Assembly (NCBI RefSeq): GCF_028285745.1
Contig: NZ_JANQOP010000124.1
Coordinates: 1-49,895, forward strand
Length of the DNA: 49,895 nucleotides
Direction: 5' to 3'
DNA from: Acaryochloris sp. IP29b_bin.137
Lineage (GTDB): Bacteria > Cyanobacteriota > Cyanobacteriia > Thermosynechococcales > Thermosynechococcaceae
The notes beneath the pieces were generated by a model. It saw nothing but the letters and a program-made list of their open reading frames with translations, searched no databases and was not told the DNA's origin. Of the stretch, positions 8,304-35,662 are shown in pieces. How positions within the stretch are numbered: position 1 is the first letter of the stretch; each line of letters begins with the position of its first letter. A program made the translations under genes and the position numbers.

Positions 8304-8366
8304 ATTACTTTATCTATCTATTCAATTACTTTATCTATCTATTCAATTACTTTATCTATCTGTTCA
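8304..8366. repeat. Three tandem 21-bp repeats
   Basis: The unit ATTACTTTATCTATCTATTCA is present three times head to tail (8304, 8325, 8346), with a single A-to-G change in the last copy. It is in non-coding DNA between the CIA30 gene and the polysaccharide cluster. Near-perfect copies suggest recent expansion by replication slippage. Confidence 0.9.
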
Positions 8367-14388: not shown

Positions 14389-14444
14389 CGCTTCACTCAA
14401 TATTCTTAGACGATATGCTCAGAAGAATAAATTAAACCCTTGAA

Positions 14445-15914: not shown

Positions 15915-16024
15915 ACCAAAATAATGCAACCAAATCTTAGAACATTATAGTCGATACAACTAGAAGAAATAACAGAAATACTATATTGAATGACAAGAGA
16001 ATTGCCTGCAGTTAAGTAAATAAT

Positions 16025-16831: not shown

Positions 16832-16888
16832 CTCAATGAGCAGCTTGAAGTTCACAAGAACTTACTGGTAAGTGAGAAACGTTAGATT

Positions 16889-17869: not shown

Positions 17870-17925
17870 AAAAATCTTAAAACGCTGCATACCTAAAAGC
17901 TAATTACTTCAATGAGATATATTTG

Positions 17926-18885
17926 ATGACAAAAGTTTCAGTGATTATCCCCGCATATAACGCAATGCCTTATTTACCTCAAACGGTAGAAAGTGTTTTA
18001 CAACAAACTTTCAACAACTTTGAGGTATTAATCATAGACGATGCCAGTACAGATGAAACAGTAGAGTGGGCATCCCAGCTTGAAGACCGTAGAGTAAGTC
18101 TAATTCAGCACGATCAAAATCAAGGTCTAGCCACGACACGCAATATGGGTATTAATAGAGCCAAAGGAGATTACATTGCTTTTCTAGATGCAGATGATGT
18201 TTGGGAGCCAACTAAATTATCTAAACAGATTCAAGTACTCAATCGAGATACTCATATTGGTCTAATTTACACTTCTGCAGCAATCATAAATGAAGAAGGC
18301 CAGACCACAGGTCGAATGTTTAAAGCATTTAAAGAAGGCAACGTTTGGGAATTGCTCATTCAAGGTAATTTTGTAGATTGTCCTTCCTCAGTGATGGTAC
18401 GACGTGAATGCTTTGACCAAGTGGGTCTGTTTGATATAAATTTTCGCTGTGTTGAAGATTGGGAAATGTGGATTCGAATTGCAAAAAGATATAGATTTGC
18501 AGCCATACATGAGCCACTTGTTAAATTTAGAATGGTATCTAACAGCCTCTCTAAAAACTATCACTTAATGGAAACGTCTTTCCACCAAGTAATCAACAAA
18601 GTTTTTCAGTCAGTTGATACAGACTTATTGCCTTTAAAAAAACGGAGCTGCAGTCATGCAAATATGGTTATAGCCTGGAAAGCATTACAAAGCAAAGACA
18701 AGAATGTTACCCAGGCCTCTAAATACAAACATCTAGCATTTAAGAGCTATCCATTAAAAGTTCTAACAAAAGAGTACTTCAGACTGAGTACTGCAATTGC
18801 ATTGATGCATTGGTTTGGCCCTGAAAAATATGAAAAGCTTATGAATATGCTGTATGTTTTACGCCGACGTATTGCGCTGAACTGA
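17926..18885 (+). CDS. Glycosyltransferase family 2 (GT-A), tandem paralogue
   Basis: A 319-residue GT2 transferase with KVSVIIPAYNAMPYLPQTVE at the N-terminus, FEVLIIDDASTDETV, the DxD-type FLDADDVWEPTKLSKQI and VEDWEMWIRIAKRYRF as the catalytic-base region. The segment up to DADD-WEPTKL is nearly colinear with the preceding gene. ATG 17926 is taken as the start; an adjacent TTG would add one Met. Two similar but diverged GT2 enzymes suggest consecutive additions in one repeat unit. Donor and acceptor are unknown. Confidence 0.9.
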   Translation: MTKVSVIIPAYNAMPYLPQTVESVLQQTFNNFEVLIIDDASTDETVEWASQLEDRRVSLIQHDQNQGLATTRNMGINRAKGDYIAFLDADDVWEPTKLSKQIQVLNRDTHIGLIYTSAAIINEEGQTTGRMFKAFKEGNVWELLIQGNFVDCPSSVMVRRECFDQVGLFDINFRCVEDWEMWIRIAKRYRFAAIHEPLVKFRMVSNSLSKNYHLMETSFHQVINKVFQSVDTDLLPLKKRSCSHANMVIAWKALQSKDKNVTQASKYKHLAFKSYPLKVLTKEYFRLSTAIALMHWFGPEKYEKLMNMLYVLRRRIALN

Positions 18886-18974
18886 TTAGTAATATTAAAT
18901 AGTCCTAGATTGACTGAAGGTATTTATGAAACAGGATTCAGGAAACAATAGTAGATATAAATATTGAGAAAATC

Positions 18975-20123
18975 ATGAATACTTTAAATATTAATAAAGG
19001 AAAAGATGATCTAAATATCAATAGCATTCTTGAAAAGAATCGCATAGACGATCCCAATCTAACTGTTTGTTTCGTTCCTAAACTACCGTCGACAAACCCT
19101 TATCAAAGCTTATTAGAGCAATCATTGAGCAACCTAGATGTTCAAGTTCATGGGATTGATCCGTATAAATTCTTTTTGCCTACAGCGACTAAAAAGTACA
19201 AGCCAAATGTCATTCACATACACTGGCTTGAACCTTACCTTAAAGCAAAGAGTACTTATAGATCTCTGATCAAAGTAATAGGGTTTGTTTTAGGATTATT
19301 AATTTTAAAGTTTAAAAAAAACAAAATAGTATGGACTGTTCATAATTTAAAATGTCATGAAACCTATTCAAACCCACTGTTGCAACTGCTTGATTATATC
19401 TTGAATTGGTCTGTGGCAAAAGTTTCAGATTCAATGATTGTCCATAGTTATTTTGCAAAAGAAGAGGTTGAATCTAGATTTGGGGTTGACCATAAGAAAA
19501 TAGTCGTTATTGACCACGGCAACTATATAGATTATTACGAAAACTCAATTTCAAAGTCAGATGCTCGCAGGTTATTAGGGATTCCTAGTTCTGATTTTTG
19601 CTACTTATTCCTCGGAAATATTCGACCCTATAAAGGTGTTGTTCAACTAGTCAAAGCATTTAATGAATTAGAACGACAGGATTCAACTCTTGTTATAGCT
19701 GGCAGTCCAATAACCATCAATATTTCTGATAAAATTTTAAAGGAAGCAAATAACAATCCAAAAATCATCCTGCATCTAAAACATATTTTGGATGAAGAGA
19801 TTCAGATATATATGAATGCCTGTGACGTAATTGTGTTTCCCTATCACAGTATTTTAACTTCAGGTGCTTTGATTCTGGCAATGTCATTTGGCAAAGTATG
19901 TATTGCGCCTAAAATTAGCTGTATTCCTGAATTATTAGATGAATCACAAGCCTTTCTATATAAACCTGACAGTAATCAGGGTTTACTCAGCGCAATGATT
20001 CAAGCTAGGAAGGATCAATCAAGCATCCATACGATGGGTAATCATAGCCTCGGCGTAGCTACTAATATGGATTGGAAATCTGTAGCACAAAAAACGGTTG
20101 ATACCTACTATGCTTCAGTTTAA
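18975..20123 (+). CDS. Glycosyltransferase family 4-like (GT-B)
   Basis: A 382-residue GT-B-type protein. The acceptor half contains NVIHIHWLEPYL and KIVWTVHNLKCHE. The donor half has FCYLFLGNIRPYKGVVQLVKAF, STLVIAGSP, CDVIVFPYHSILTSGALILA, where the usual E-x7-E region is altered, and GKVCIAPKISCIPELL. The IHIHWLEP stretch is seen in cyanobacterial exopolysaccharide transferases. The coding DNA is among the most AT-rich in the window, consistent with a horizontally acquired cluster. The specific sugar is unknown. Confidence 0.83.
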   Translation: MNTLNINKGKDDLNINSILEKNRIDDPNLTVCFVPKLPSTNPYQSLLEQSLSNLDVQVHGIDPYKFFLPTATKKYKPNVIHIHWLEPYLKAKSTYRSLIKVIGFVLGLLILKFKKNKIVWTVHNLKCHETYSNPLLQLLDYILNWSVAKVSDSMIVHSYFAKEEVESRFGVDHKKIVVIDHGNYIDYYENSISKSDARRLLGIPSSDFCYLFLGNIRPYKGVVQLVKAFNELERQDSTLVIAGSPITINISDKILKEANNNPKIILHLKHILDEEIQIYMNACDVIVFPYHSILTSGALILAMSFGKVCIAPKISCIPELLDESQAFLYKPDSNQGLLSAMIQARKDQSSIHTMGNHSLGVATNMDWKSVAQKTVDTYYASV

Positions 20124-20180
20124 TTTTTTATGTCTTTAACCTGACCAAATCTATATATATTAAATCTAATCTTTAGAGTT

Positions 20181-21068
20181 ATGGTACTTCCTAATTTTTT
20201 GATTATTGGTGCTCCGAAATCTGGAACAACATCACTATATTATAATCTTAAAAAACACCCTCAAATTTATATGAGTCCACTAAAGGAGATCCACTTTTTT
20301 CACAAGCATAAGGATTATATTGACCACGAAGATCTATCTAAATATCAAAACTATTTTAAAAATGTAAATAAAGAATCTGCTATTGGGGAGGCAACAACAA
20401 CATATCTATATAGTATCAATGCACCTGGAAGCATTCAGCGCTTTATACCTAATGCTAAATTAATAGCCGTTCTCAGAAATCCAATTGATCGAGCTTACTC
20501 TGAGTATTTAATGCAATACCGAAATAACAGATTGCCTGACAATATCTCTGAAAAAGATCTTTTCCCTTATTTTTCGCATCTGATTAGTGAGGATAGTAAA
20601 AGCTCACTATTACAATATGGTTTTTACTGGAAAAGTTTGTCAAGATACACAAATATAGTTGAGCCGAATAATCTCAAGATCTTTCTTTTTGAGAATCTTA
20701 AACATGATACCCCTAGAGTGCTACAAGATATTTGTCGCTTTTTGTCTGTCGATGACACATATTTTTTAGGAAACTATAGCCCTACCTTTAATCAGGCAGG
20801 CATACCGAAGAATAAAACTATCTATAGCTTGCTTGAACACTTTAGACGCACGTATGGTCCTGGCCTATCAAGGTATTTCCCGGAAAGTACATATGAAACA
20901 CTTAGAAAGCTTTATGTTGAGACTAGAAGCCGTTTTTTGATGTCAGTTAATAGAGTCCCTCAGCTTCCATTGCATCTTCGCAAACAACTCATTGATATTT
21001 ATTTTGATGACATCATGGAACTACAGCGTTTTTTAAACACAGATCTTACCGGTTGGTATCAACTCTAG
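20181..21068 (+). CDS. Sulfotransferase domain protein (heparan-sulfate-sulfotransferase-like)
   Basis: A 295-residue protein with a complete PAPS site. The 5'-phosphosulfate loop is FLIIGAPKSGTTSLYYNL (about 6-23), followed by HPQIYMSPLKEIHFF. The 3'-phosphate motif is LIAVLRNPIDRAYSEYLM (about 93-110). This is the classic Sulfotransfer_1 layout, closest in pattern to carbohydrate and heparan N/O-sulfotransferases. It is the second sulfotransferase of the cluster and clearly of a different subfamily from the first, so the two may sulfate different positions of the glycan. The DNA is AT-rich. Confidence 0.9.
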   Translation: MVLPNFLIIGAPKSGTTSLYYNLKKHPQIYMSPLKEIHFFHKHKDYIDHEDLSKYQNYFKNVNKESAIGEATTTYLYSINAPGSIQRFIPNAKLIAVLRNPIDRAYSEYLMQYRNNRLPDNISEKDLFPYFSHLISEDSKSSLLQYGFYWKSLSRYTNIVEPNNLKIFLFENLKHDTPRVLQDICRFLSVDDTYFLGNYSPTFNQAGIPKNKTIYSLLEHFRRTYGPGLSRYFPESTYETLRKLYVETRSRFLMSVNRVPQLPLHLRKQLIDIYFDDIMELQRFLNTDLTGWYQL

Positions 21069-21081
21069 ATTAATTTCATAG

Positions 21082-21264
21082 ATGACTTTGAAGTGTTCGA
21101 ATCCAACTAATGGAGGTGATATTTGGTTCAAGGATATCATGAATATTTTTTCTGAGTATGGCTGGTCCTATTCTATTCATTCCTATAGTAGCAACAGAGG
21201 AAAGTTTAATGTTCATGCATCGCCTCACCAAGAAGAAGTAGTTTCAGAAATGCTTAGGTATTAA
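21082..21264 (+). CDS. Small hypothetical protein
   Basis: A 60-residue frame, ATG 21082, 13 bp after the sulfotransferase stop. The composition is protein-like (mixed polar and aromatic; IWFKDIMNIFSEYGW, then a His/Ser-rich tail) with no membrane segment. The ribosome site is weak. There is no family match that I recognise, and it may be a chance frame or the tail of a decayed gene. Confidence 0.3.
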   Translation: MTLKCSNPTNGGDIWFKDIMNIFSEYGWSYSIHSYSSNRGKFNVHASPHQEEVVSEMLRY

Positions 21265-21343
21265 CCAACTAATTTCATCTCTCTATTTTTACTCTATTAT
21301 TTCCTTCATTAGCAACATAGCCCTTTCTTTTCTCTATAAAATC

Positions 21344-23194
21344 ATGCTTTCTAAGTTCATTTTTCAAATAAAAGAGTTAATAAAAAATGTTCGCTTTTGG
21401 AGAGAAAATCATCTTATTCTTCGAGAGTTAAAACATATTCGCTGGCTAGTATTTTTATCCCTGCTTTTTTCATTGATAGCAGCTTTGTCTGCTGGACTTA
21501 CTATTGGTTCAATTGGGGTATTCCTTCAAAGCTTGGCTAAGCCTGATGAATTCCCTATCCGCACTGGTTTCGATTGGTTCGATGTTCATGTTCTTGCAAC
21601 TCGGGCTCCCGTGGATCAGCGTATTTATCGCATTGCTTTTTTAATATTGTTGATGACTTGGATTCAGTCTGCTTTTCAGTATTTTAGCTTGCTTTATTCT
21701 AAGCTAACTGCCTTTAGCCTGGTTGACCGTATACATAAGTCGATATTTGAACAATTGCAGAGTCTTAGTCTCAGCTTTTTTTTCAAGAAGTCTTCCGGTG
21801 AGTTGATCAATATTTTGCGAGGTGAGACTGATCAGATCCAGCATGTGCTTATCTCAATGTCAATGTTAGTGACTCAAGGCTTTACAATGCTTGTATATGT
21901 GGCTTTGATGCTAACACTTTCTTGGCAATTATTCCTCGGTGCATTGGTAGGATTTAGTCTTTTATCGGTTGTTATTTCAAAGATTACCTCAAGAGTTCGC
22001 GAAGCTAGTTTTGATGTTCCAGCTGCGAATAAGCAATTAACCTCTATTGGTCTAGAATTTATTGATGGTATTCGTACTGTTCATTCCTGTGTTACTCAGG
22101 AGTATGAGCGTCAACGATTTTATAGAGCTAGTCAGAATGTCTTAAATGCTCGTGCCAAAGTGGGTCGACTAGCTGTTGCCGTTCAACCCCTGACTCGCGG
22201 TATGGCAGGTACGATGCTTATTGTGATGGTTGCTTTCGCTTTTAATTCTTTGGTTCGTCCTGGGCATATGCGGACAGCCACATTGCTAACTTTTCTGGTG
22301 ACCTTATCGCGCACAATGCCGCTGTTGACTCAAATCAACGGATCCTTGGCAAGAATGAGTAGCTTTCAAGGTTCGTTTAACAGTGTCAGTGAGCTTCTGA
22401 GACGAGATAATAAGCAGTACCTAATGAATGGAAGTCAAATTTTTTCACAGCTAACACATTCGATTGACTTTATTGCTGTTGATTTTAGCTATCATTCTGA
22501 CGAAGTTGTTCTCAAAGATATTACTCTATCTATTAAAAAAGGACAGACTACGGCGCTAGTTGGTTCTTCGGGGGCTGGTAAATCAACATTAGCTGAGTTG
22601 ATTCCTCGATTTTTTGACCCTAGCCAGGGTTCGATTCTGATTGATGGAGTCGATCTACGTGATCTAGATATAAATTCTTTCCGAAGTCGGATGGCGATTG
22701 TTAGTCAAGATACCTTTATATTCAATACTTCTGTAAGAGACAACATCGCTTACGGTCTTGACCATATAGATGAAGATTTGATTTTGGAAGTGGCTCGCCA
22801 AGCTGGAGCATTAGATTTTATTCTTGAGCTTCCCCATGGATTTGATACCAACCTGGGCGATCGCGGTACTCGTTTATCTGGTGGTCAACGTCAGCGGATC
22901 GCAATAGCTCGTGCACTATTGCGTAATCCAGAAATTCTGATATTAGATGAGGCAACAAGTGCTTTAGACTCAGAAACAGAACGAGTAATACAAGAATCTC
23001 TGGCAAAATTAGCCATTGGCCGGACTGTCATTGCTATTGCCCATCGATTATCAACTATCGCTCAAGCGGATAAGGTTGTGGTGCTAGAGCAAGGTTGCAT
23101 AGTTGAGCAAGGGCGTTATCAAAATCTTCTTGAAAGGCGTGGACTGCTATGGAAATATCACCAGATGCAGTATGACCTAAGTCCATCAAGTTAG
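21344..23194 (+). CDS. ABC transporter, fused permease-ATPase (MsbA-like half-transporter)
   Basis: A 616-residue half-transporter, expected to work as a homodimer in the inner membrane. Six membrane helices lie in residues about 35-340 and the ATPase in about 370-610. The ATPase has Walker A GSSGAGKST, Q-loop IVSQDTFIFN, signature LSGGQRQRIAIARALL, Walker B ILILDEATSALD and H-loop IAHRLST. All catalytic residues are present. Within a polysaccharide cluster that has no Wzx, it is the best candidate for flipping the lipid-linked glycan or a glycolipid. That role is inferred from position only. HIP1 octamer 22857-22864 lies inside it. Confidence 0.9.
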   Translation: MLSKFIFQIKELIKNVRFWRENHLILRELKHIRWLVFLSLLFSLIAALSAGLTIGSIGVFLQSLAKPDEFPIRTGFDWFDVHVLATRAPVDQRIYRIAFLILLMTWIQSAFQYFSLLYSKLTAFSLVDRIHKSIFEQLQSLSLSFFFKKSSGELINILRGETDQIQHVLISMSMLVTQGFTMLVYVALMLTLSWQLFLGALVGFSLLSVVISKITSRVREASFDVPAANKQLTSIGLEFIDGIRTVHSCVTQEYERQRFYRASQNVLNARAKVGRLAVAVQPLTRGMAGTMLIVMVAFAFNSLVRPGHMRTATLLTFLVTLSRTMPLLTQINGSLARMSSFQGSFNSVSELLRRDNKQYLMNGSQIFSQLTHSIDFIAVDFSYHSDEVVLKDITLSIKKGQTTALVGSSGAGKSTLAELIPRFFDPSQGSILIDGVDLRDLDINSFRSRMAIVSQDTFIFNTSVRDNIAYGLDHIDEDLILEVARQAGALDFILELPHGFDTNLGDRGTRLSGGQRQRIAIARALLRNPEILILDEATSALDSETERVIQESLAKLAIGRTVIAIAHRLSTIAQADKVVVLEQGCIVEQGRYQNLLERRGLLWKYHQMQYDLSPSS

Positions 23195-23343
23195 TTCAAA
23201 TCATTTATACACTTCAATTTGGATACTTCGATACAAGAATCTTGTCACTCGCTTCTGAATGTAATTGACCTCTTATTTTGTCTATCGATTAGAGATTTGT
23301 AATCGTCCTCCCTCCCATTTTTTTTGATTAGAGAAACAAACCT

Positions 23344-25005
23344 ATGAAGCAGCCTGTTATTGCAATTGGTTTAGATGCAGCAGATCCAAATCTGCTTGAA
23401 ACTTGGATGTCTCAGGGATATCTTCAGAATCTTAAACGCCTTCGTGAGCAAGGTGCCTACGGTCGCCTGAGCAACATTGACTATTACAAGGCGGAAACCC
23501 CATGGACTACTTTTTTAACGGGTTGCTTACCTGATAAGACTGGATATTGGTCCCCGCTTAAATTTTGGGAGGGAACCTACAATGTTGAGCAGATTGAAGC
23601 CTATAGTTTTGATGAGTATGCCCCTTTCTATGACTTGGGTGACCAATATCGAGTGGCGACTTTTGACCTACCGCAATCTACGCTTGCCCGTGATGTTAAT
23701 GGGGTGCAGGTACTTGCTTGGGGAGCGCACTCTCCTCAAACACCAAGTTGCTCAAAGCCCAACGAACTATTAGAGGCTTTGAATGAACGCCATGGGAAGC
23801 ACCCAGCCCTTCATAAAGATCATGGTGATTGGTGGGATCAAGCTTATCTCCATCGTCTACGTCAGTCGTTAATTTCGGGACTTAAGCAGCGAGTAAATAT
23901 TTGTCGTGACTTGCTACAACAGGACCAATGGGATTTATTTTTGACCATCTTTGGTGAAACCCATTCAGCAGGTCACGATCTTTGGTTTATGAGCCAATCT
24001 GACCACCCCCTATACGAGTATGGAAAAGGGCAACTAGGTACCGAAGACCCAATGCTCGATGTTTTTGATGCGGCAGATCAAGCCATTGGAGAAATCCTTG
24101 ATGCTGCTCCTGAAGATGCCACTGTCGTGGTATTTGCTGCCCACGGTAGTGGCAGTAACATAACTGATGTTGCCAGTATGCTGTTTTTACCTGAATTTTT
24201 GTATCGCTTCAGCTTTCCAGGTAAGACGATGCTTGCCCCTGGGCACAAGAGCGCCACAGTTCCACCCGTGATCACCTCTCCTAATACTAAGAGCTGGACA
24301 AGTGACATTTGGCAGCGGAAACATATAGCCAATCCATTTGAGCGCTTTCTGCGAAAGCGTTTACCCACTCGATATCATAGATATATAGACAGGCTTGGGA
24401 GTTTTAGAGCCCATAGATTGATTTCTCCCGGACAATTACAAAAGCGAGGGGTTCCACTCTTTTGGCAGCCCACGTTGTGGTACAAGCTGCTGTGGCCACA
24501 TATGAAGGCTTTCGCTCTGCCTAGCTTCTCGGAAGGCTATATTCGCGTCAATCTCCAAGGCCGAGAACCCAATGGGCTTGTTCCTCCGGAAGAATACGAC
24601 TCTTTGTGCGATGAGTTGATCCAACAACTAAATTTGATCGTTAATCCCCGAACGGGGGAATCAGTTGTCAAAAAAGTAAGACGAACCAGACAATCGGCCC
24701 ATGACAACGATCCAAAACTGCCAGATGCAGACTTGGTTGTGGAATGGACTGACATGCCAGCAGATGTCATTGATCATTCTCAATTCGGTCGCATCGGCCC
24801 AGTGCCCTATCGTCGCACAGGTAGCCACCGTTCGCAGGGCTTTTTGATCATGAAAGGTCCAGATATTGCTTCAGGGACAACATTACCCATAGGTCATGGG
24901 GTTGACTTAGCGCCAACCATCTTAGATTTAATGGATGCACCAATTCCTGATTACTTTGATGGTCAGTCTTTAGTACAACCAGTACTTCAAAAAAGTGGCA
25001 CTTAA
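23344..25005 (+). CDS. AlkP-superfamily phosphodiesterase/sulfatase-like protein
   Basis: A 553-residue protein of the alkaline-phosphatase superfamily (type I phosphodiesterase/nucleotide pyrophosphatase group). Visible parts are the first metal site VIAIGLDAADP (Asp 11), a probable Thr nucleophile in TPWTTFLTG (Thr 55/56), IFGETHSAGHDLW and the C-terminal RRTGSHRSQGFLIMKGPDI with HGVDLAPTILDLM. The usual metal-binding SDHG appears as FAAHGSG, so one Asp ligand seems absent. No signal peptide, so probably cytoplasmic. Substrate unknown; processing of a phosphorylated or sulfated sugar or lipid intermediate is possible given the context. Confidence 0.78.
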   Translation: MKQPVIAIGLDAADPNLLETWMSQGYLQNLKRLREQGAYGRLSNIDYYKAETPWTTFLTGCLPDKTGYWSPLKFWEGTYNVEQIEAYSFDEYAPFYDLGDQYRVATFDLPQSTLARDVNGVQVLAWGAHSPQTPSCSKPNELLEALNERHGKHPALHKDHGDWWDQAYLHRLRQSLISGLKQRVNICRDLLQQDQWDLFLTIFGETHSAGHDLWFMSQSDHPLYEYGKGQLGTEDPMLDVFDAADQAIGEILDAAPEDATVVVFAAHGSGSNITDVASMLFLPEFLYRFSFPGKTMLAPGHKSATVPPVITSPNTKSWTSDIWQRKHIANPFERFLRKRLPTRYHRYIDRLGSFRAHRLISPGQLQKRGVPLFWQPTLWYKLLWPHMKAFALPSFSEGYIRVNLQGREPNGLVPPEEYDSLCDELIQQLNLIVNPRTGESVVKKVRRTRQSAHDNDPKLPDADLVVEWTDMPADVIDHSQFGRIGPVPYRRTGSHRSQGFLIMKGPDIASGTTLPIGHGVDLAPTILDLMDAPIPDYFDGQSLVQPVLQKSGT

Positions 25006-25329
25006 CTGGAGGGAAAATTTATTTCTGAGGAATTTTTTTGAGTAATTATGCTTCTCTTATTGTTTATCACAGAAAAACTCTATATTGCCTCATTTTCTGT
25101 TAGGAAATGTTTGTCGAAGGAATACTCTAGGATAAATCTGAAACTTCTAGAGAAACACCCAAGATTTCGCTTCTTTTTGTCAAAGAGTGAGTTCGGGAGG
25201 ACCAACAGAGGAGTGATGCAGCCTTTTTGAAATGTCTTTTAACAGAACTATCTCTCTAGGATTTTAAGTTAAAGATACCAACCAAAATAATGTACGTTGC
25301 GAAAGCATTCAGAAAGAGATTGAGTCAGT
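25006..25329. other. Intergenic region without a convincing gene
   Basis: This 324-bp AT-rich gap holds a 60-codon frame at 25048-25230 (hydrophobic start, basic tail) without a good ribosome site. No terminator or repeat is evident. It may be part of a decayed gene. Confidence 0.4.
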
Positions 25330-25905
25330 GTGTTGAAATCTAGTGATAAGTTGCCCAAAGTATTTTGTATTGGCCTGATTAAGACTGGTACAACCAGTCT
25401 TGGCTATGCCTTAAAAATGCTTGGTTATAATCATACGACTTCAAATCGGAACGTGCTATTAGAGGATGTTGTAAACGGCAATCTGCAGCAGATATTTGCT
25501 TGGGTCGATCAGTATGATAGCTTTGACGATTGGCCTTGGCCCTTCATTTATCGTGAGCTTGATAGTCATTATCCTGATTCTCGTTTTATTCTCACTACCC
25601 GGTTAAATGAAGAGATCTGGCTCAGAAGTGTTCTGCAGCATTCAGAGTGGTGCGGACCATCGTCTGGGCGTGAGAAATTCTTTGGCCATGCTATGCCTCA
25701 GAAGCATGAGCGACAGTATATTAATCGCTACAGAGAGCATCACCGACAAGTACGAGACTACTTTCGTAATCGACCTGACAAATTGCTTGAGGTCTGTTGG
25801 GAAAAGGGGCAAGGATGGCCTGAACTTTGTTCTTTTCTAAATATGCCAGTTCCTAATGCTCAATTCCCATGTGCAAATACCAAGTCCAATCGGATAAATA
25901 AATAA
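25330..25905 (+). CDS. Sulfotransferase-like P-loop protein
   Basis: A 191-residue protein. KVFCIGLIKTGTTSLGYAL (about 10-28) is a 5'-phosphosulfate-type loop, then LGYNHTTSN. The second half has SRFILTTRLNEEIWLRSVLQ, matching the 3'-phosphate strand, and a C-terminal LLEVCWEKGQGWPELCSFL, typical of the Sulfotransfer_4/P-loop group. The start is GTG 25330, with an adjacent TTG at 25333; neither has a strong ribosome site. This is the third sulfotransferase-type gene here. It is shorter than the other two, and its substrate is unknown. Confidence 0.75.
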   Translation: MLKSSDKLPKVFCIGLIKTGTTSLGYALKMLGYNHTTSNRNVLLEDVVNGNLQQIFAWVDQYDSFDDWPWPFIYRELDSHYPDSRFILTTRLNEEIWLRSVLQHSEWCGPSSGREKFFGHAMPQKHERQYINRYREHHRQVRDYFRNRPDKLLEVCWEKGQGWPELCSFLNMPVPNAQFPCANTKSNRINK

Positions 25906-25955
25906 AGTTTTGAGACCAGGCTTTTCAAGACAATGTATCGTGAGTTAGCGTCCCC

Positions 25956-26135
25956 ATGGCAACATTTTTAGACCTGCTGGCGAAATATAGCGGCTGGAGT
26001 GTTGTAATATCGTCAATCTACGCCTCCCAACTCGCTCCTGCTGATTTACGCCTCTATGTCACAGATAAGTATGCTCTTGAAGGCTTGACTAAAGCTGCTG
26101 CTAATGTTGAGACTATGGTCAATTTATTTGTCTAA
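25956..26135 (+). pseudogene. Remnant of a short-chain dehydrogenase/reductase (SDR)
   Basis: ATG 25956 opens a 59-residue frame. It reads SVVISSIYASQLAP, then YVTDKYALEGLTKAAA. This is the SDR catalytic stretch (Ser in the V-ISS strand, then Y-x-x-x-K with KYALEGLTKAAA). The Rossmann N-terminus and the C-terminal third are missing, so it is a fragment. It sits alone between two intact genes of the cluster, evidence of gene loss or rearrangement there. Confidence 0.5.
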
Positions 26136-26215
26136 GACTGTCTAAGTGGGGGAGCTCACTATTTGCTAATTATGCTTATTTAAACGCAAAACAAATGTGT
26201 CATTAATCTATTAAA

Positions 26216-27196
26216 ATGTCCATACAAATATCTGCTATTATTTGCACTTTTAACCGTGCTGACCATCTTCGTAAGTCACTCAAAAGTTTAGCTGAGCAAA
26301 CCCTCGTTACAGAGCTTTATGAGATATTGGTCATAGATAACTGCTCGACTGATGAGACCAAAAAGGTTGTAACTGCTGAACTGGTTAACATACCTAACTT
26401 ACACTACATTTATGAGCCAAAGTTAGGGCTGTCTCAGGCTCGGAATACTGGCTGGCAGCATGCTAAGGGAAAGTACATTGCCTATCTTGATGATGATGCC
26501 ATTGCAAATCCTCAATGGTTGGAAGATGTCTGTAAGGCTTTTGAAGAGATCCAGCCCCAGCCTGGCTGTGTTGGAGGCAAGACGGAACCCATTTGGGAGT
26601 CGACCAAGCCGCTGTGGTTGCCAGATGAGTTTCTTTCATATCTCACCATAGTGGATTGGTCGGATAAACCCATTTTCCTCGAGAATAATCAGTTTATTGC
26701 AGGTGCTAATATGGCTATCCTGCGATCGCTACTTGTTGAACTAGGTGGCTTTACCTTAGATCTAGGCCGAAAAGGGAAGAGTCTATTATCATGTGAAGAA
26801 ATTTTGCTGCGGGATCAAATTAGAGATAAAGGCTATGGAATTTATTATGATCCTGATATTTTCGTTAAGCATTTTATCCCTAGTTCTAGGCTAACTCAAT
26901 CTTGGTTTACTCAAAGACTCTATTGGCAAGGTGTTTCTAGGGCCAATCTTTTTGATATTCAAGTTTCATCATCTAAATTTAGATTAATTAAGTCAGTTAT
27001 GGGCAGGCTATTAGAATTAATAAAGTCTCCAATGGAAGTTTTATATTTATGGATGCCAACAGATAAACCAGAACGTTTTAAACAGAAATGTAATGCTTTA
27101 TGGAAAATTGGTTATATGTCAGGGCTAACATCCATTTTGTTTTCGCGTGCGCGTTCGAAAACAAAGGAAAAAGAATCCTCGCAATTGGGTAACTGA
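26216..27196 (+). CDS. Glycosyltransferase family 2 (GT-A)
   Basis: A 326-residue GT2 transferase starting ISAIICTFNRADHLRKSL, with ILVIDNCSTDET (about 39-50), the SQARNTGWQHAKGKYIAYLDDDA segment with its DxD-type acidic cluster, and AGANMAILRS plus EEILLRDQIRDKGYGIYYDP as the acceptor/base region. This type (TFNR...LDDD) differs from the two GT2 genes further upstream. It is the last gene of the polysaccharide cluster and is followed by a strong terminator. The sugar is unknown. Confidence 0.9.
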   Translation: MSIQISAIICTFNRADHLRKSLKSLAEQTLVTELYEILVIDNCSTDETKKVVTAELVNIPNLHYIYEPKLGLSQARNTGWQHAKGKYIAYLDDDAIANPQWLEDVCKAFEEIQPQPGCVGGKTEPIWESTKPLWLPDEFLSYLTIVDWSDKPIFLENNQFIAGANMAILRSLLVELGGFTLDLGRKGKSLLSCEEILLRDQIRDKGYGIYYDPDIFVKHFIPSSRLTQSWFTQRLYWQGVSRANLFDIQVSSSKFRLIKSVMGRLLELIKSPMEVLYLWMPTDKPERFKQKCNALWKIGYMSGLTSILFSRARSKTKEKESSQLGN

Positions 27197-27249
27197 AAAT
27201 AACTCTGGCCTGAATTCTGCAGGGGTGGCAAACCGTATACGGTCGATTC

Positions 27250-27296
27250 GGTGTAGTTTTACCCCATCTTTGCGGGTAATCTACACCAGATTTTTT
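27250..27296 (+). terminator. Rho-independent terminator closing the polysaccharide cluster
   Basis: A two-part stem, GGTGTAG (27250-27256) with CTACACC (27281-27287) and inner TTACCC with GGGTAA, is followed by six T. It lies 54 bp after the last glycosyltransferase. It marks the 3' boundary of the cluster. Confidence 0.85.
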
Positions 27297-27341
27297 GGGG
27301 TGGGTCTGTGAGAATAGGGTTACTGAAGCACAGAACCTTTG

Positions 27342-27632
27342 ATGAAGCAAACCTCTCTGTTTAACCTGTTTCAAACTGCCTTTCGTAAAGGTATTCGCCA
27401 TCCCAAATATCGCTGGGCTCTCATCGTTGGGGCGCTGTTTTATCTGGTTAGCCCGTTAGATATCGCCCCTGATGTTTTGCCGGTAGTGGGTTGGATTGAT
27501 GACGGTGTACTAGCGACTTTCCTCATTTCTGAAGTCTGTCAGCTGATGTTGGAAAACAAGAAAAACCGCACTTCTGAAGAAACGTTTGCAACCGCGAACA
27601 CAATTGATATTGAAGCAAACCCTGTTGTTTAG
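27342..27632 (+). CDS. DUF1232 family membrane protein (YkvA-like)
   Basis: A 96-residue protein. The core FYLVSPLDIAPDVLPVVGWIDDGVL (about 33-57) is the DUF1232 signature (Y-x-x-SP-D-x-x-PD-x-x-P-x-x-G-x-x-DD). It would be a small membrane-associated protein with one or two hydrophobic hairpins; function unknown. ATG 27342 is chosen, with a TTG just before it. It probably forms a pair with the following gene, 42 bp downstream. Confidence 0.85.
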   Translation: MKQTSLFNLFQTAFRKGIRHPKYRWALIVGALFYLVSPLDIAPDVLPVVGWIDDGVLATFLISEVCQLMLENKKNRTSEETFATANTIDIEANPVV

Positions 27633-27674
27633 TAGCTCCACAATTTCAGACATACAGTGCAGGAGATTTTACGG

Positions 27675-28223
27675 ATGGATATGAACAATACAACTCCAAT
27701 GATGCAGACCTTTAACCAAATCAAAACTGAAGGTGGGACTCGTAGCCAGCGGATTGGCAAGATCCTCAAGGATGCCTTTAATCAAACTTCTGCAGAACTG
27801 AAAGAAGGGTATACCATTGTTCGCCCTCTAGCTGCAGAAATGTCGGCCACAGCCGCTGCAGACCTGAAAGAAAAGCGCCATCAAGCGTCCAGTAATTTCA
27901 AAGAAGCCTGGGGCAATGAAACAGACTCCAGTTCAACCTGGGAGCGTTTACAACGGGTCTTCCAGATGATGGCAACCGCTCTTAAAAAGACCCTCACGCC
28001 TCCGTTACGGAAGCAAGCCACTCGCGTCGATACCAAATTCACGGATCAGTATGGTGACTCCTACACATCCATGAAGCGCGGACTCCAGTCTCTTAAAAAC
28101 TGGTACGTCAAAGCCACGGATGCTGCCGACCCTGCTGATTCGTCCACTCAGCCTCAAGCAGTTCCCCATGGGAGCGTGACGGTGGATGTGGTGGCCTCAA
28201 CCGTTGAGTCCCCGGTTCAGTAA
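27675..28223 (+). CDS. Hypothetical protein, Ala/Lys-rich helical
   Basis: A 182-residue protein from ATG 27675, chosen because AGGAG (27661-27665) lies nine bases upstream. A GTG at 27657 sits before that ribosome site and is unlikely. The sequence is mainly amphipathic helix (LKEGYTIVRPLAAEMSATAA, DLKEKRHQASSNFKEAW) with no membrane segment, and ends in a Ser/Val-rich tail. It resembles apolipoprotein-like or membrane-binding helix proteins in composition only. No family recognised. Confidence 0.7.
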   Translation: MDMNNTTPMMQTFNQIKTEGGTRSQRIGKILKDAFNQTSAELKEGYTIVRPLAAEMSATAAADLKEKRHQASSNFKEAWGNETDSSSTWERLQRVFQMMATALKKTLTPPLRKQATRVDTKFTDQYGDSYTSMKRGLQSLKNWYVKATDAADPADSSTQPQAVPHGSVTVDVVASTVESPVQ

Positions 28224-28364
28224 AGCTGTGGGCATGGATTCAGCCCCAAAGTCGCTCACTACACTTCCCCTTCAGATCTTGAAAGACCTGGCTCTGCCGC
28301 TAGGATAGAGTTGAGACTCCCTTCAAGTCTGGAGGGATTTTCTTAATCTTTGTCATCTTAGGTT

Positions 28365-28853
28365 ATGTCTTCCCTTGTCCAACTCCGTTCTTTAGAAGAC
28401 TTGCTGGTTACCGCGATCGCAATCGCAACCCAATGCCATACCGATCAAATCGATAAAGCAGGCCAGCCCTACATTAACCACCCCCTGCGAGTCATGGCAG
28501 CGGGCAATACTCTGCCTGAGAAAATCGTGGGCGTGCTCCATGATGCCGTGGAAGACTCAGCTTTAACCCTGGAGGAACTGGCTGAGGCAGGATTCCCTGA
28601 CGAGATTTTGGCCGCCATTGATGCGATTACCAAACGTGAGCAGGAACCCTATGAAGGGTATTTGGAAAGAGTGATGGATAATGCGATCGCACTGCAGGTC
28701 AAAATTGCTGATATGACAGACAACATGGATATCAGCCGGATTGCGAATCCAACCGATAAAGACTGGGCCAGATTGAGAAAATATAAAGCCATCCTGCCGA
28801 GACTGCAGCAGCGGTTACCAGAGAATCAGGAATTCAGACGACATAAAGATTAG
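28365..28853 (+). CDS. HD-domain phosphohydrolase (MESH1/SpoT-hydrolase-like)
   Basis: A 162-residue stand-alone HD hydrolase. Metal ligands are visible as YINHPLRVM (His, residue about 38), VGVLHDAVEDS (His-Asp, about 64-65) and VKIADMTDNMD (Asp, about 117). This is the order found in the hydrolase half of SpoT/RelA and in small alarmone hydrolases such as MESH1. It lacks the synthetase, TGS and ACT domains. Degradation of (p)ppGpp or a related nucleotide is inferred from the motif pattern. A HIP1 octamer lies inside the gene at 28413-28420 and another at 28683-28690. Confidence 0.82.
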   Translation: MSSLVQLRSLEDLLVTAIAIATQCHTDQIDKAGQPYINHPLRVMAAGNTLPEKIVGVLHDAVEDSALTLEELAEAGFPDEILAAIDAITKREQEPYEGYLERVMDNAIALQVKIADMTDNMDISRIANPTDKDWARLRKYKAILPRLQQRLPENQEFRRHKD

Positions 28854-28922
28854 CGAAGCAGGTTGCTTGCCACTCAATCGTCAACAACAATAGAGTTGAA
28901 CGCTACATTAGGCGATGTTTTG

Positions 28923-29285
28923 GTGAAGTTACTCCATGTCTTGATTGCTTTGAGCCGAAAAGCTAGCTTATTCGCCTGCCTAATGGTGATGGGGTTAGGG
29001 TTGAATCTCTCCTCTGCCTGGGCGGCCTCGCCTGAAGACGGAGTAGTGCTGTTTGAGAACTACTGTGCAGGCTGTCACCCCAAAGGCGGCAATATTATCC
29101 GTCGTCGTAAAACTTTAAAGCAGAAATCTTTAGAACGGGATGGCTACGGCGCTCTGGAGCCACTTATCAATCTTATTGACCAGGGACAAAACAATATGCC
29201 GGGGTTTGCAGATCAGCTCAACAATACGCAAGTGGAGACTGTGGCCCAGTTTGTTCTAGAACAAGCTAGCCACACTTGGAAATAA
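28923..29285 (+). CDS. c-type cytochrome, c6-like
   Basis: A small lumenal or periplasmic haem protein. From GTG 28923 it has 120 residues: a signal peptide (basic start, hydrophobic core LFACLMVMGLGLNLSS, cleavage near AWA-AS) and a single cytochrome c domain with CAGCH (48-52) and axial Met in NNMPGF (Met 92). The GGNIIRRRKTLKQKSL segment after the haem site is typical of c6-like (c6B/c6C group) proteins. The open frame begins at TTG 28863, but the later GTG gives a better signal peptide. It would carry electrons near photosystem I or the oxidase; the exact partner is unknown. Confidence 0.85.
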   Translation: MKLLHVLIALSRKASLFACLMVMGLGLNLSSAWAASPEDGVVLFENYCAGCHPKGGNIIRRRKTLKQKSLERDGYGALEPLINLIDQGQNNMPGFADQLNNTQVETVAQFVLEQASHTWK

Positions 29286-29309
29286 ACCCCTAGCGTTAGG
29301 AGCAGGCTC

Positions 29310-29894
29310 TTGGAACCTCTCAAGATCAACATAGCCACTCCAGCAGAAGTAGAGGATTGTCTGGCTATTCTCACCTTAGCCTTCTGTAGCGATCCAGCGT
29401 TTCGGTGGATGTTTCCACAGCCATCTCAATATGCTCAAGGTTTACCGCTGTTCGCTCAAGCCTTTGGAGGAGAAGCTTTTCACCAGGCCACTGCATTTTA
29501 TACTGAGGAGTTTGGTGCGGTGGCGCTTTGGCTACCTCCTAACACTCAGCCCAATGAATCAGCCTTGATGGCATTCATTCAGCAGGGGGTTGAGGAGAGT
29601 CAACAATTGGCCCTAGACTCTATTCTGGAGCAGCTTGATGGTTACCATCCCCAAGTCCCCCATTGGCATTTAGCCCTGATCGGCACGGATCCAATCTGTC
29701 AGGGGCAAGGCTATGGATCAGCATTACTCGCCCACACCCTCAGGATCTGTGATCAGCAGCAAGAACTCGTGTATTTAGAAGCAACGAATGCTCGCAATGT
29801 TGCCCTTTACCAAAAGCATGGCTTTGAAATGTTGGGCACAGTGCAGGTGGGGAATTCACCCATACTCTATCCCATGCTCCGCCACCCGCAATAA
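29310..29894 (+). CDS. GNAT family N-acetyltransferase
   Basis: A 194-residue acetyltransferase. The acetyl-CoA loop is visible as LIGTDPICQGQGYGSALLAHTL (Q-G-x-G-x-G/A, residues about 125-146), followed by YLEATNARNVALYQKHGFEMLG, the standard GNAT C-terminal strand and helix. The start is TTG 29310, supported by AGGAG (29298-29302) seven bases upstream and the absence of a nearby ATG. It lies 24 bp after the cytochrome gene and 39 bp before pdxJ, so it is probably in an operon. Substrate unknown. Confidence 0.85.
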   Translation: MEPLKINIATPAEVEDCLAILTLAFCSDPAFRWMFPQPSQYAQGLPLFAQAFGGEAFHQATAFYTEEFGAVALWLPPNTQPNESALMAFIQQGVEESQQLALDSILEQLDGYHPQVPHWHLALIGTDPICQGQGYGSALLAHTLRICDQQQELVYLEATNARNVALYQKHGFEMLGTVQVGNSPILYPMLRHPQ

Positions 29895-29933
29895 ACTTTA
29901 TAATTGATCTTCCCCCTAGCCAGGAGTGTTATC

Positions 29934-30656
29934 GTGCCTACCCTTGGTGTCAATATCGATCATGTGGCGACGATTCGCCAAGCCCGTCGCACTGTAGAAC
30001 CCGATCCAGTAGCTGCAGCGGTGTTAGCGGAATTAGCGGGTGCCGATGGCATTACGGTTCATCTACGGGAAGATCGACGTCATATTCAGGATCGGGATGT
30101 TGAGGTATTGCGAAAAACGGTTCGTACTCATTTAAATTTGGAAATGGCGGCAACGGCGGAAATGGTTGAGATCGCACTGCGTATCCAACCGGATTATGTC
30201 ACCCTGGTGCCGGAAAAGCGAGAGGAAGTAACCACAGAAGGGGGGCTAGATGTGGTCGGCCAGCAAACTCATATGGCGGATGTAGTCCAGACCTTACAAG
30301 CTGCTAATATTCCCGTCAGCCTGTTTATCGATGCCGATGCTGCCCAAATTGAAGCAGCCGCTCAGGTGCAGGCCAAGTTTATTGAACTGCATACGGGGAC
30401 TTACGCGGAAGCCAAGGGCGAGGCCCAGCAGGCCCAAGAGTTGGAAGTGCTGAAGCAGGGATGTGATCGCGCCCTTGCTTTAGGTCTGCGAGTCAATGCA
30501 GGTCATGGTTTGACCTATTGGAATACCTATCCCGTGGCCTGTTTACCGGGGATGGAAGAACTGAATATTGGCCATACGATTATGAGTCGGTCGGTGTTGG
30601 TGGGTTTGGAGCGGGCCGTGCGGGAAATGAAGGACGTGATTGCAGGGCGAGGCTAG
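29934..30656 (+). CDS. pdxJ: Pyridoxine 5'-phosphate synthase
   Basis: A 240-residue TIM-barrel enzyme that condenses 1-deoxyxylulose 5-phosphate with 3-amino-2-oxopropyl phosphate to give pyridoxine 5'-phosphate. Diagnostic stretches are [72 protein letters not shown] and [14 protein letters not shown] 29934 is chosen because AGGAG (29922-29926) precedes it by seven bases; an upstream TTG at 29904 would add ten odd residues. It is last in a tight run of + strand genes. Confidence 0.96.
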
Positions 30657-30928
30657 GTTGACAGCGTCGTTACCTGCTGACATATCCAAACACGCATAAT
30701 TTAGGCCTAAATAGCAGATATCTTCACTGTTAGAGGTCTTCTCATTCTGGTTTGGAGAAGATTCAGTGGGAGGTCTGTCAGGGATGAAACTTAAACAACA
30801 AGCCACAGTAAATCTTCGGCAAGGTTTGCCCTTAGGATCGCATGTCCTTGTTGTATTGAAATGATCAGCCTTGTTAATAAGATTGAGCAACCTGAAAAGG
30901 ATTTGCCTATTCTAGGATTCCACCTGCG
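30657..30928. other. Intergenic region, nothing identified
   Basis: This 272-bp gap between pdxJ and the WD40-KAP gene has no credible small gene, terminator or repeat. It must contain the promoter of the downstream gene, which I could not define. Confidence 0.4.
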
Positions 30929-33900
30929 ATGGATAAATCATTACCGCCTGATATTTTTGCAGCACTAAAAAGCCCGGTTTTATCAACCACAATTTCTCCT
31001 AACGGGCAACAAGTCGTTGCAGGGTTAAAAGACGGTTCTCTTCATCTTTTCGATCTGGTGGAGGGCCAGCCCATTGGCCAACCCTTCTCGGGACATACTT
31101 CCTCTGTCTTGTCCGTCGCCTTCTCCCCCGATGGCCAGACCATCGTCAGTCAGTGGCAGTTATGACAACACCCTGCGCTTGTGGAATCTTGAGGGCCAGC
31201 CCATCGGCCAACCCTTCTCGGGACATACTGCCCCTGTCAGGTCCGTCGCCTTCTCCCCAGATGGAAAAACCATCGTCAGTGGCAGTTCTGACAGAACAAT
31301 ATGTCTGTGTAAACGCACCCTTGAGCAAGACTTTAGGCTCCTGTGGATGTATCCTCCCATCATTGCCAAACCCATTAAAAATTTATCTGAGCTGATCGGC
31401 AATATCCTCATTTCTCAAGGAATTAAAAACGATCGAGCCTTTGGGAATGATGCTCTAGATGTTGAAGATGAAATTAATGCATTAACTGAAGTGCTGCTAC
31501 TCAGGAGCTTGACCCCTCCAGTTGCCGTCGGACTATTAGGCAATTGGGGCAGTGGCAAATCGTTTGGCATGCATCTTATTCAATCCCAGATCAAGGCTCG
31601 ACGACGCCAATCAGTGACTTCAGAAGAAGCCTGGGGAAAGTGGAATCCTAGGCAAGAAGCACAAATAGAACGTATGTCTCCATCTGTGGGTCATGTTTAT
31701 CAGATTCAATTCAACGCCTGGACCTATGCCAAGTCTAATCTTTGGGCAAGTTTGATGCAGGAAATCTTCTATGAATTAAATCGACAAATTACCTTAGAAC
31801 AAAAACTGGGCCGCTTTTTAAGCGAAAAGGATATCCCACTCATTGAAAAAGCATCACCAATCAGTCCTGCTGATCGGAGCCAGCATTACACTCCCTATAA
31901 ATTCCTGAATTATTATATTCTCCGCCACTATCGACTGATCCAATCTTTCTATCGATCGATAAAAAACAAAATCTATACAATTTTCTTATTAATTTGTTCT
32001 CTCCTTGATTTAGCGATTGGGCAACTCATTGTTCATCTAGGATTAATATTTTTCACTATTCTTTTCGCCATTTTATTGATCATCTTGTATTTAATCACTG
32101 TCTTTTTGCAATGGCGCATAGAAAAAACCCACTTCAAATCTACAGATATTAATTGGGTTAATAAACTTGATTCTTATATTGAAGGCCGACCCTTTATAGA
32201 TTGGCTTGAAAGACAGCTTACAGCATATTACTTTCCCCAGCTAAACCACTTGCCAAGTGCAAGCAAATTTGACTATTTTTTGCAAGTTATTGAACGGAGT
32301 TTATTTTTCTTTTTCGAAGGTTTTCCAAAAAGAATACGGAATCGAATAACTTATTGGCAGCGCCAGCAAGGGGCATTAGAGCCAACAAAAACAGAAAGCC
32401 ATTCCCAGCAAACACCACTTGGTATAGATGAGAACCTCCAATTCGGTGAAATTGCTCGGGTCAATCAAGCTTTACGACAAGGTGGGAATTTATGGGAGGT
32501 ACTGTATGAAATCAACGAAGCAGATGCCGATGCCCTACTGGAACAACGGCTGAGCAAAGAAGACAGAGCAAAGTGGAGCAGCTTAAAATCCGATCAAGAA
32601 ATATCCAATGTCCTTTGGTCAACACTAGATAAAATTCAACGACAGAAAACTCAGAACTTTCAGGCATTGGAGCAAAAGCTTAAAGAAGCTGAAAAAACCT
32701 TAGAACGAAAGCAAAAAAGCAACGAAATTAGTATCAATCAGAAACTCAATCGACGAAGAATAGGAGCACTATGGACACCATTCTTTAACGGTATTGCCCG
32801 ACTCAAATTTTCTAAAGAGGATATCGAAGCCTTTTCTGCTGCTGGCAAATCTTTCCAAAGGTTTCGTGACACTATTAAAAGCTGGCAAGGCTTACTTGCC
32901 CTATTCTGTATGGGTTTGTTGATTGCACTTACCGTCAGCTCTGACAGTCGAGAAGTAATTATCCAACTGTTACAAACCATCCTCAATTCTCAAACTCTTC
33001 GTGACCTCATACCTGAATGGATTAAGAACCGTCTCAATTCACTAGTCTCTTGGCTTTCTGAGGCAATCAAAGAATTTCCGACCTGGTTGCAGCTTGGATC
33101 TGCCACGTTGATTAGCCTACTACCTATCATCAAAGCCCTCACAACCTACATTGGCTCAGTCCAAAAGGAGCAAGCTCGCATTCAAGGCGAGAAAGATACC
33201 TTAATCCAACAGTCCCAGGACAGAGTCGCATCAGAAGCCCAAGCAGTTGCTCAACTACGTTTAAGGGTTGAAGAAGAACGTCTACAGTTGGGACCCAATG
33301 CGCAATATCCTTCATTACTCGACTTCGTCAACGCTCGCATATCAGGCGATGACTATGGCAAACATCTGGGTCTAATGCAGCAGATCAAACAAGACCTTGC
33401 GGCCCTATCCTCGCGTCTGACCCTAAATCAAGGCAATGAGGAAGAAATTCAACAACTTTTTCCCCGTGGTCCTGCCAGAGTATTTCTCTACATTGATGAT
33501 CTCGATCGTTGTCCCCCCGACCGCGTCGTTGAAGTGCTGGAAGCGGTCCAGCTTCTCCTTAATACCAAACTATTTGTTGTCATTTTAGCCATTGACGATC
33601 GCTACATTGCCCGTGCGCTAGAACAAGTCTATGCAGGCGTTCTCAAGCGCCGAGGCAAACCCTCCGGTATCGACTACCTGGAAAAAATCATCCAAATCCC
33701 CTATCGCATGCGTCCCATTTCACCGGACACCGTTGAAAAGTACTTTCGTTCACAGCTCACCATCAAAGAACCAAATTCAGACCCAGAGGATCAGTCACGT
33801 AAAGCAGGCAATGTGTATCAGGCTGTCCATGATCCAAGTACTAAGCCTTCAAGTCACTCCAATTCAGAGTCAGGGCAACCAAAAAGCCAATCTATTCAAG

Positions 33901-34793
33901 ATACAGCCAACTTAGAATCTGAAAAGCTACGGCTAGTAATCGATGAAGTAGATCACCTATCCAGTGCAGAGGATGAAACGATAGCTCAGAACCTCACCTC
34001 CTCTGCTAAATCCCCAGAGGAAAGCTTACCCAGTCCAAAACCATCTGAGCCATATGCCAAAGCTGCAGTCAATCCAAGCACAGAACCAACAGAACTTCCA
34101 AAAGCCTCTGAAACAGAACAGAAAAGCAATCCTAGCCCTGCCAAGCGTAATGAAGCACTATCAGACCAACCTCCGACTCCAGAAGAAGTCACCTATATCT
34201 CAACAATTGCAACCGTCGATGCATTTGATGAAGAAGAACTAAAGCTGTTAGTTGATTGCTGTAAATATGTGGATATCACCCCTCGTACCGGGAAAAGGCT
34301 CATCAATATCTATAAAATCCTGCAAATTATTTGGAAAACTAGGCACAAAGAAAAAGGCCACGACCTTCCCGACGATCCAAAAAAGCGAATCGTGATGTCA
34401 TTTCTGGCATTATCAGGCAGATACCCTGACTTTATGCGCAGTCTCTTCGACGAAATCGATATGCGGCTGGAGCAAGCAACCTTTGCCTCCAACAATGGAA
34501 AGATAACAGAAAATCCTTCCATCGAATTGCCTCTATCAGACTTCTTGAAAAAGCTAGGCCCCAAAAGCAATTTAAGCAATTATCAAGATTCTCACACCAA
34601 GAGAGAATGGGCTCGTTTCACCTCTGACATTAAACACATGGTGACCGATTCTACTACTCAAGCCACAGACCCTGTTCTCAACTTAGATCGTAGAACTTTT
34701 TCTCTGATGCTGTCATTTTGCTTTGTGGGAGATCTTGGCTATGATCCAGACGATCAGCCAATCAACTTTCCATCACAGCAAAATCCTGAATAA
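30929..34793 (+). CDS. WD40-repeat / KAP family P-loop NTPase fusion, frame broken by a 4-bp duplication
   Basis: As read, a 78-residue WD40 piece (ATG 30929 to TGA 31165) overlaps an open frame that runs to 34793. Removing one CAGT from CAGTCAGT (31147-31154) joins them into one frame of 1286 residues. The N-terminus then has three WD40-type repeats. The KAP NTPase has Walker A LLGNWGSGKSFG (about 203) and Walker B VFLYIDDLDRCPPDRV (about 849), split by membrane helices (about 347-394, 650-670) as in the KAP family. A Pro/Glu/Ser-rich linker (about 930-1085) and a helical C-terminal domain follow. KAP NTPases include the F-plasmid phage-exclusion protein PifA, so defence is a possibility, not shown. 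As sequenced, the NTPase part could be made alone only from an internal start such as the Met before YPPIIAKPIK. Confidence 0.75.
31061..31316 (+). repeat. Two near-identical WD40-unit DNA repeats (126-bp period)
   Basis: Units begin at 31061 and 31191 (GAGGGCCAGCCCAT...). The first 90 bases differ at nine positions. Spacing is 130 bp, which becomes exactly 126 bp (42 codons) once the extra CAGT in the first unit is removed. The second unit has the undisturbed form (ATCGTCAGTGGCAG). Confidence 0.9.
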
Positions 34794-35101: not shown

Positions 35102-35662
35102 ATGACCGTCCAAATTCTGCGAAAAAAATTCACGGTAGGACAGTATCACCAGATGATTGAATCTGGCATTTTGACTGACCGGGACCATGTGGAACTTATT
35201 CAGGGAGAAATTATTGAAATGTCGCCCGTTGGCAGACACCATGCCGCCTGTGTAGATCGACTCAATGAGCTATTAGTCTTAAAGCTATTCCAAAAAGCAT
35301 TGATTCGAGTGCAAAGTCCCATTCTCCTGAGTGATCACTCCGAACCACAGCCGGATGTCTCTATCCTGCAACGACGAGAAGATTTTTACGATGCAGGACA
35401 CCCTAAACCTGACGATATTTTTGCCTTGGTAGAGGTGTCCGATAGCACCATTGAGTTTGACCGGGACGTGAAAATTCCTATGTACGCTCAGGAACACATT
35501 CCTGAGGTTTGGCTGGTTAACCTAAACGATACCCAGGTTAAACGCTATTGCCAGCCCATAACGACTACTTATCAACAACTGCAAATCTTTAATCTGGGAG
35601 AAATGCTTAGCTTTCAAGCATTCCCTGATGTTCCCATAGAGATAAACCAAATCTTCGGATAG
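35102..35662 (+). CDS. Uma2 family (DUF820) restriction-endonuclease-fold protein
   Basis: A 186-residue member of the large cyanobacterial Uma2/DUF820 family with a PD-(D/E)XK nuclease fold. It starts with FTVGQYHQMIESGILTDRDHVELIQGEIIEMSP. The active-site residues follow as PQPDVSIL (Asp), FALVEVSDST (Glu) and FDRDVKIPMYAQ (Lys). All core residues appear present. The biological role of the family is poorly known; many copies are spread by transposition-like expansion. No ribosome site of note precedes ATG 35102. Confidence 0.86.
   Translation: MTVQILRKKFTVGQYHQMIESGILTDRDHVELIQGEIIEMSPVGRHHAACVDRLNELLVLKLFQKALIRVQSPILLSDHSEPQPDVSILQRREDFYDAGHPKPDDIFALVEVSDSTIEFDRDVKIPMYAQEHIPEVWLVNLNDTQVKRYCQPITTTYQQLQIFNLGEMLSFQAFPDVPIEINQIFG

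Follow-up and report, generated by a model that had tools for sequence, protein, structure and literature searches.

According to PMC5587647, Cyanobacteria are enriched in WD40 proteins, and some prokaryotic WD40 proteins have repeats of high internal identity; tandem blades similar to those discussed here are described there in a cyanobacterium, and a word search of the main text returned no mention of NTPase, KAP or NACHT. In a full-text literature search, PMC10907252 alone matched KAP NTPase, WD40 and cyanobacteria together, and its matching text refers to KAP NTPases solely as occasional targets of diversity-generating retroelements; no paper on a WD40-KAP NTPase fusion was recognised among those listed.

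The closest counterparts of the gene described here, which lies on an Acaryochloris contig of 49,895 nucleotides analysed at its full length (the window), are cyanobacterial WD40-KAP NTPases of Elainella saxicola (L003) and of six further loci (L099-L103 and L105), in which a WD40 array, Walker A and Walker B follow each other in the same order. The Elainella protein also has the linker in common with that of the window, and its KAP part is collinear (query residues 26-1238). These homologues are read in one frame, whereas the gene in the window is split by 4 bp, and the six loci have seven detected blades against about three in the window (and about three in Elainella too).

Known KAP-type NTPases from anti-phage profile sets, namely QatA, PifA and PDC-S20, are related to the window gene through partial PADLOC profile matches around Walker B, which say only that KAP NTPases occur in such sets. 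QatA itself is described in PMC13279940 as a predicted KAP-family NTPase. Identity of the window gene with QatA (NF041923) was rejected on an NCBIfam score of 74.3 bits against an equivalog cut-off of 600, and the eight neighbouring ORFs scanned gave no Pfam match to a QueC- or TatD-like protein. A role of the WD40-KAP gene in defence is a guess.

Structure of the interrupted gene

All parts of the gene lie on the forward strand. Its 5' piece (30929..31165) encodes 78 residues made up of a degenerate blade and the first part of a WD40 blade (Pfam WD40, 8.8e-12), is collinear with the frames of the two sister loci discussed below (L031 and L032), and ends at an out-of-frame TGA (31163-31165), which is reached because a duplication shifts the frame. 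The downstream frame (31074..34793, 1239 residues; KAP_NTPase 1e-33, WD40 2.6e-13) consists of a TTG start, 25 out-of-frame residues, the rest of blade 2, blade 3, a linker and a complete KAP NTPase. It stays open from 31029 up to the stop codon at 34793, without another stop in between; its first start is the TTG at 31074, and the two frames overlap at 31029-31165. An annotation would call two genes here, a 78-residue WD40 scrap and a TTG-started KAP protein, where relatives have one.

Hydrophobic segments between Walker A and Walker B are a feature of the KAP family. In the window protein the Walker A or P-loop region (31527..31568, VGLLGNWGSGKSFG, with the motif GNWGSGKS) and the Walker B region (33477..33521, RVFLYIDDLDRCPPD, with FLYIDDLDR) are both intact when read directly, and hydrophobic stretches such as IFLLICSLLDLAIG and LALFCMGLLIALTV are seen by eye between them. 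Scoring 117.3 bits against a cut-off of 20 for the KAP family P-loop NTPases (PF07693), the KAP domain is, judged by its sequence, a clear member of this family. No sequence match of the KAP part to solved structures was obtained at E ≤ 0.1, and plasmid records gave neither a DNA nor a protein match.

The lesion is a tandem pair of CAGT within GTCAGTCAGTGGCAG (31145-31159, forward strand), inside the second WD40 blade, its counterpart in the next WD40 unit being GTCAGTGGCAG at 31275-31285. On the left of the lesion, 31061-31144 matches the next unit with 89% identity at an offset of 130 bp, whereas on the right 31155-31167 matches it with 92% identity at an offset of 126 bp; among the offsets of 126 to 130 compared, every other one gave at most 35% on both sides. 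The repeat therefore holds four extra bases, and the drop in offset from 130 to 126 bp falls where a sequence-only reading of this DNA had placed a CAGT duplication. The 1286-residue fusion that the same reading expected on removal of one CAGT follows from simple arithmetic (3865 bp minus 4 gives 1286 codons and a stop). Its description of the lesion unit as the first WD40 unit needs correction, as a degenerate blade, recognised by eye at about 30970-31060, comes before it and the lesion unit is the second of about three.

The CAGT pair alone was not counted as evidence beyond chance, since tandem 4-mer pairs are common in the window (225, against a mean of 188 and a range of 161-221 in 20 mononucleotide shuffles); CAGTCAGT occurs at 18607 too. 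Unlike the 4-mer pair itself, the effect on the frame together with the orthologue comparison is non-trivial, because both sister orthologues are without the 4 bp and in frame.

Sister loci and the wider WD40-KAP group

The same locus is found in two sister Acaryochloris MAGs, G004 (L031, 83% identity to window 27227-31293) and G002 (L032, 87% identity to window 29899-31297), with pdxJ, the same spacer and the start of the gene in both. The upstream neighbour pdxJ (window 29904..30656, forward strand; PdxJ 2.1e-102) marks these loci as orthologous. Alignment of the window with its related strains bears out the interruption: a 4-bp gap falls at the lesion in both sisters, each of which carries one CAGT and stays in frame across the next blades as far as its contig goes, which gives 137 residues in L031 and 197 in L032. 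A 16-mer across the duplication has a single occurrence in this genome and none in six congeners, so that the broken state is private among the congeners searched. The gene-start ATG of the window and G004 is ATA in G002, where the start could be a GTG one codon further upstream.

Both sister 5' contigs end inside the WD40 array, and the 3' ends of the sister genes lie on separate contigs (L001 and L002) that align with window 34127-34793 at 90% and 86% identity and have no internal frame change; a 2-bp gap against G002 is located at 34783, in the last KAP codons. The middle KAP part was not found in either sister, whose genes are thus known as two ends. The two 3' contigs start with the same 99-mer (L001:1-99 and L002:1-99, window 34127-34225), a pattern that a branch in an assembly graph with k=99 would produce, and the source paper of these MAGs gives MegaHIT with k-mers up to 99 (PMC9868349). 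As L001 and L002 start alike at the same place in the gene, the absent KAP middle may be a contig common to both strains, perhaps a recombined or identical tract. The two MAGs with this common start come from one coral-skeleton sample.

More widely, a KAP match at E ≤ 1e-40 was obtained in 33 of the 388 class genomes searched, this genome included, and 32 stretches were examined with a blade profile, which had 13 highly repetitive blades as its source and may overlook those that diverge. Blades and P-loop stand in one frame at all 14 loci where both were found, 13 of them distinct (L097 is identical to L003 over the ORF and was counted once), while a KAP domain without a detected WD40 blade is present at seven loci, four with a complete N-terminus. 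Among the remaining stretches, two are the 5' contigs of the sisters and eight (L104, L110, L114 and L116-L120) are outside these counts, as they showed no blades and no single frame with both KAP motifs. The window is the sole stretch of the 32 with blades in two frames, and homologues in which the two frames are separate genes were looked for and none was seen in this set. The two sisters and the 13 distinct homologous loci back a single ancestral frame, in agreement with the proposal of the sequence-only reading that a 4-bp duplication breaks a WD40-KAP gene. The case points to a group of WD40-KAP NTPases in cyanobacteria, the WD40 head being in the same frame in all 13 of these loci.

The Elainella gene is one open frame of 1337 codons comprising a degenerate blade, two full blades, a linker and KAP, which is the order of the window. 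Seven blades were detected in each of L099-L103 and in L105, and 11 in L098; the frames of L105 and L098 are cut at the locus edge. L096 has six detected blades, L034 five, L121 three, Elainella two and each of the two frames of the window one, with one blade each before the locus edge in L113 and L115. By eye, the first blade is degenerate in L096, Elainella and the window. The number of profile-detected blades in WD40-KAP genes runs from 2 to 11 in arrays that are whole or nearly whole, seven being the commonest. L096 (G229:C3, reverse strand) is a homologue that is broken too, its frame being closed ahead of Walker B by an in-frame TAG at 3460-3462 in the coordinates of the reversed locus; stops inside KAP matches were also flagged in G111 and G208.

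A closed WD40 propeller usually has seven blades, and three cannot make a normal seven-bladed ring. In the array of the window (30970-31310) the profile detects one blade in each of the two frames, and a degenerate blade is recognised by eye; such an array does not close a ring of this kind, and the roughly three blades of window and Elainella would not suffice for a propeller that closes. Even without the lesion the sensor may be short, because the window has about three blades against seven detected in six homologues; its array may truly be as small as that of Elainella, or assembly may have collapsed it.

Origin of the four extra bases

The best explanation, with a probability of about 0.62, is that a single 4-bp slip in the second blade split an ancestrally single WD40-KAP NTPase gene in this lineage alone. 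The GT-CA-GT context would make the site prone to such a slip, the growing strand stepping back by four bases and copying CAGT twice, and the change would be present in the living cell. The ribosome would then leave the WD40 piece at the TGA that ends 11 bases after the second CAGT and the full fusion would not be made; an internal start would yield no more than a KAP protein that keeps roughly one and a half blades, and the sensor-coupled function would be lost. A junction left by contraction of the array was considered and set aside: by eye, both sides of the lesion fit the same sister blade, and therefore a simple local duplication suffices. For this accessory gene the case looks like a private frameshift of an ordinary sort, or an error, and not like a regulatory switch, and taken alone it matters little, being one frameshifted accessory gene in one draft genome.

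The alternative that the 4 bp are absent from the organism and stem from an assembly or consensus error, with the array perhaps also collapsed from about seven blades to three, is doubtful, though it has to be taken seriously in a draft genome (5.52 Mb in 373 contigs, 87.8% complete) with a lesion in a tandem repeat. Near-identical 126-bp units confuse short-read assembly, and the sister contigs break in the same array; moreover, their shared 99-mer at the 3' contig starts is what a graph branch at the largest k-mer given in PMC9868349 would leave. An exact-k-mer assembler, if one was used for this genome, however, would not normally invent a 4-bp duplication and some reads should carry it, no second allele of the lesion stretch was found in the genome, and 21 of the 22 window genes compared with the sisters have no uncompensated internal frame change. 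The seven detected blades of six homologues would fit a collapse to the roughly three in the window, whereas the equally short array of Elainella leaves room for a real short array. Recent loss of function and assembly error, two of the three origins raised by the sequence-only reading, are thus both retained, while the third, a slippage switch, falls on its two CAGT copies and on the absence of the duplication from all six congeners. Such a switch, in which CAGT copy number varies within the population and toggles the fusion on and off, would draw on the fact that tandem duplications are the kind of change made and unmade by slippage. Known tetranucleotide switches use long tracts. The sole three-copy tetranucleotide tract in a scan of the window is elsewhere, at 25894, and each of the two orthologues has one copy, which leaves the switch very unlikely; a tract-length study is cited in PMC5084427. 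Programmed +1 ribosomal frameshifting could in principle join the two frames across their overlap, yet the orthologues, as far as seen, are one frame that needs no shift, the split is not conserved among them and the duplication is private, so that this reading has next to no credence. Orthologue comparison and copy number led to the rejection of both.

Compatible with the favoured slip, and in itself unlikely, is the reading that the downstream frame is a working gene, with a WD40-poor KAP NTPase translated from TTG 31074 (or ATG 31131), sensing being lost and the NTPase kept. Such a protein would retain Walker A, Walker B and the C-terminal tail and lose most of the sensor. The candidate start (31060..31076, forward strand) has GGAGG followed after 9 nt by the TTG, and both Walker motifs are intact, but the pairing is probably accidental: GGAGG is ordinary coding sequence of the repeat, the 25 N-terminal residues are out-of-frame WD40, G004 is without the TTG, and the TTG that G002 has there would open the wrong frame of an unbroken gene. 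The seven KAP loci without a profile-detected blade, four of them complete at the N-terminus, would lend the reading a precedent, although the profile may have overlooked divergent blades in them. Other candidate starts of the KAP frame are ATG 31131, ATG 31347 and TTG 31179. A more speculative idea, to which hardly any weight is given, is that tandem blades act as a reversible lock, in which a slip in one unit disconnects the sensor from the NTPase and recombination between units, which are about 87% identical to each other, deletes the damaged unit and reopens the frame; if true, WD40-KAP genes would toggle between connected and disconnected states at the level of the population.

A hidden intact second copy was not found in the same genome with a 151-base sister stretch as DNA query, which matched the window over its whole length; the best match elsewhere covered 109 bases at 80% identity and lay in another WD40 array, and a few more matches were 24-50 bases long. 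The other KAP gene of this genome (G000:C264) was rejected as a second copy, being a paralogue with 40-52% identity in pieces and no WD40 blade detected.

Selection, frame census and other features of the window

The one gene of the 22 compared that has an uncompensated internal frame change is the broken WD40-KAP gene. The census took in 28 self-chosen segments, with the broken gene counted as two, of which five had no sister alignment at ≥74% identity and were dropped, so that 23 segments, or 22 genes, remained; at least 60% of each segment was aligned, except for the KAP part (34127-34793 only). ORFs at 12232-27196 and small overlapping ones stayed outside the census, as did the outer 30 bp of segments, where several genes have frame-changing gaps. 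An apparent extra frameshift at 7476-8186 was rejected in favour of a start codon placed too early: translation probably starts after the first ATG, and homology to the two sisters sets in near MADRTRQSW (about 7518).

Compared with the two sisters, the KAP 3' end (218 codons) has dN/dS of 0.27 and 0.22; the sisters differ from each other by 0.18, and pdxJ, as a yardstick, gives 0.04. The KAP 3' end is thus under purifying selection that is weaker than that on pdxJ. For the 5' piece (70 codons) the values are 0.53 (window-G004), 0.21 and 0.16. Synonymous and nonsynonymous changes number 21/25 on the window branch, 9/8 on that of G004 and 21/16 on that of G002 in the KAP 3' end, and 2/5, 6/7 and 18/10 respectively in the 5' piece, the nonsynonymous share being highest on the window branch in both pieces, on small counts. 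There is no further stop in about 3.6 kb downstream of the break. The break is probably young, and both the purifying selection and the lack of accumulated stops are consistent with a recent event; the nonsynonymous share on the window branch could mean some relaxation, a less recent break or simply small numbers.

Directly downstream of the gene, 35102-35662 encodes a putative restriction endonuclease of the Uma2 family (Pfam 1.6e-30; PADLOC PDC-S03 4.5e-16), whose DNA is 87% identical in G002 and 75% identical in G004 over 35102-35512. Elsewhere in the window, a 21-bp unit is repeated three times with a 97% match at 8304-8367, in a stretch without an ORF of at least 100 residues. Another WD40 array of the same genome (G000:C184:5674-7095) lies in a 532-codon open frame and has 11 matched units spaced 126 bp apart.
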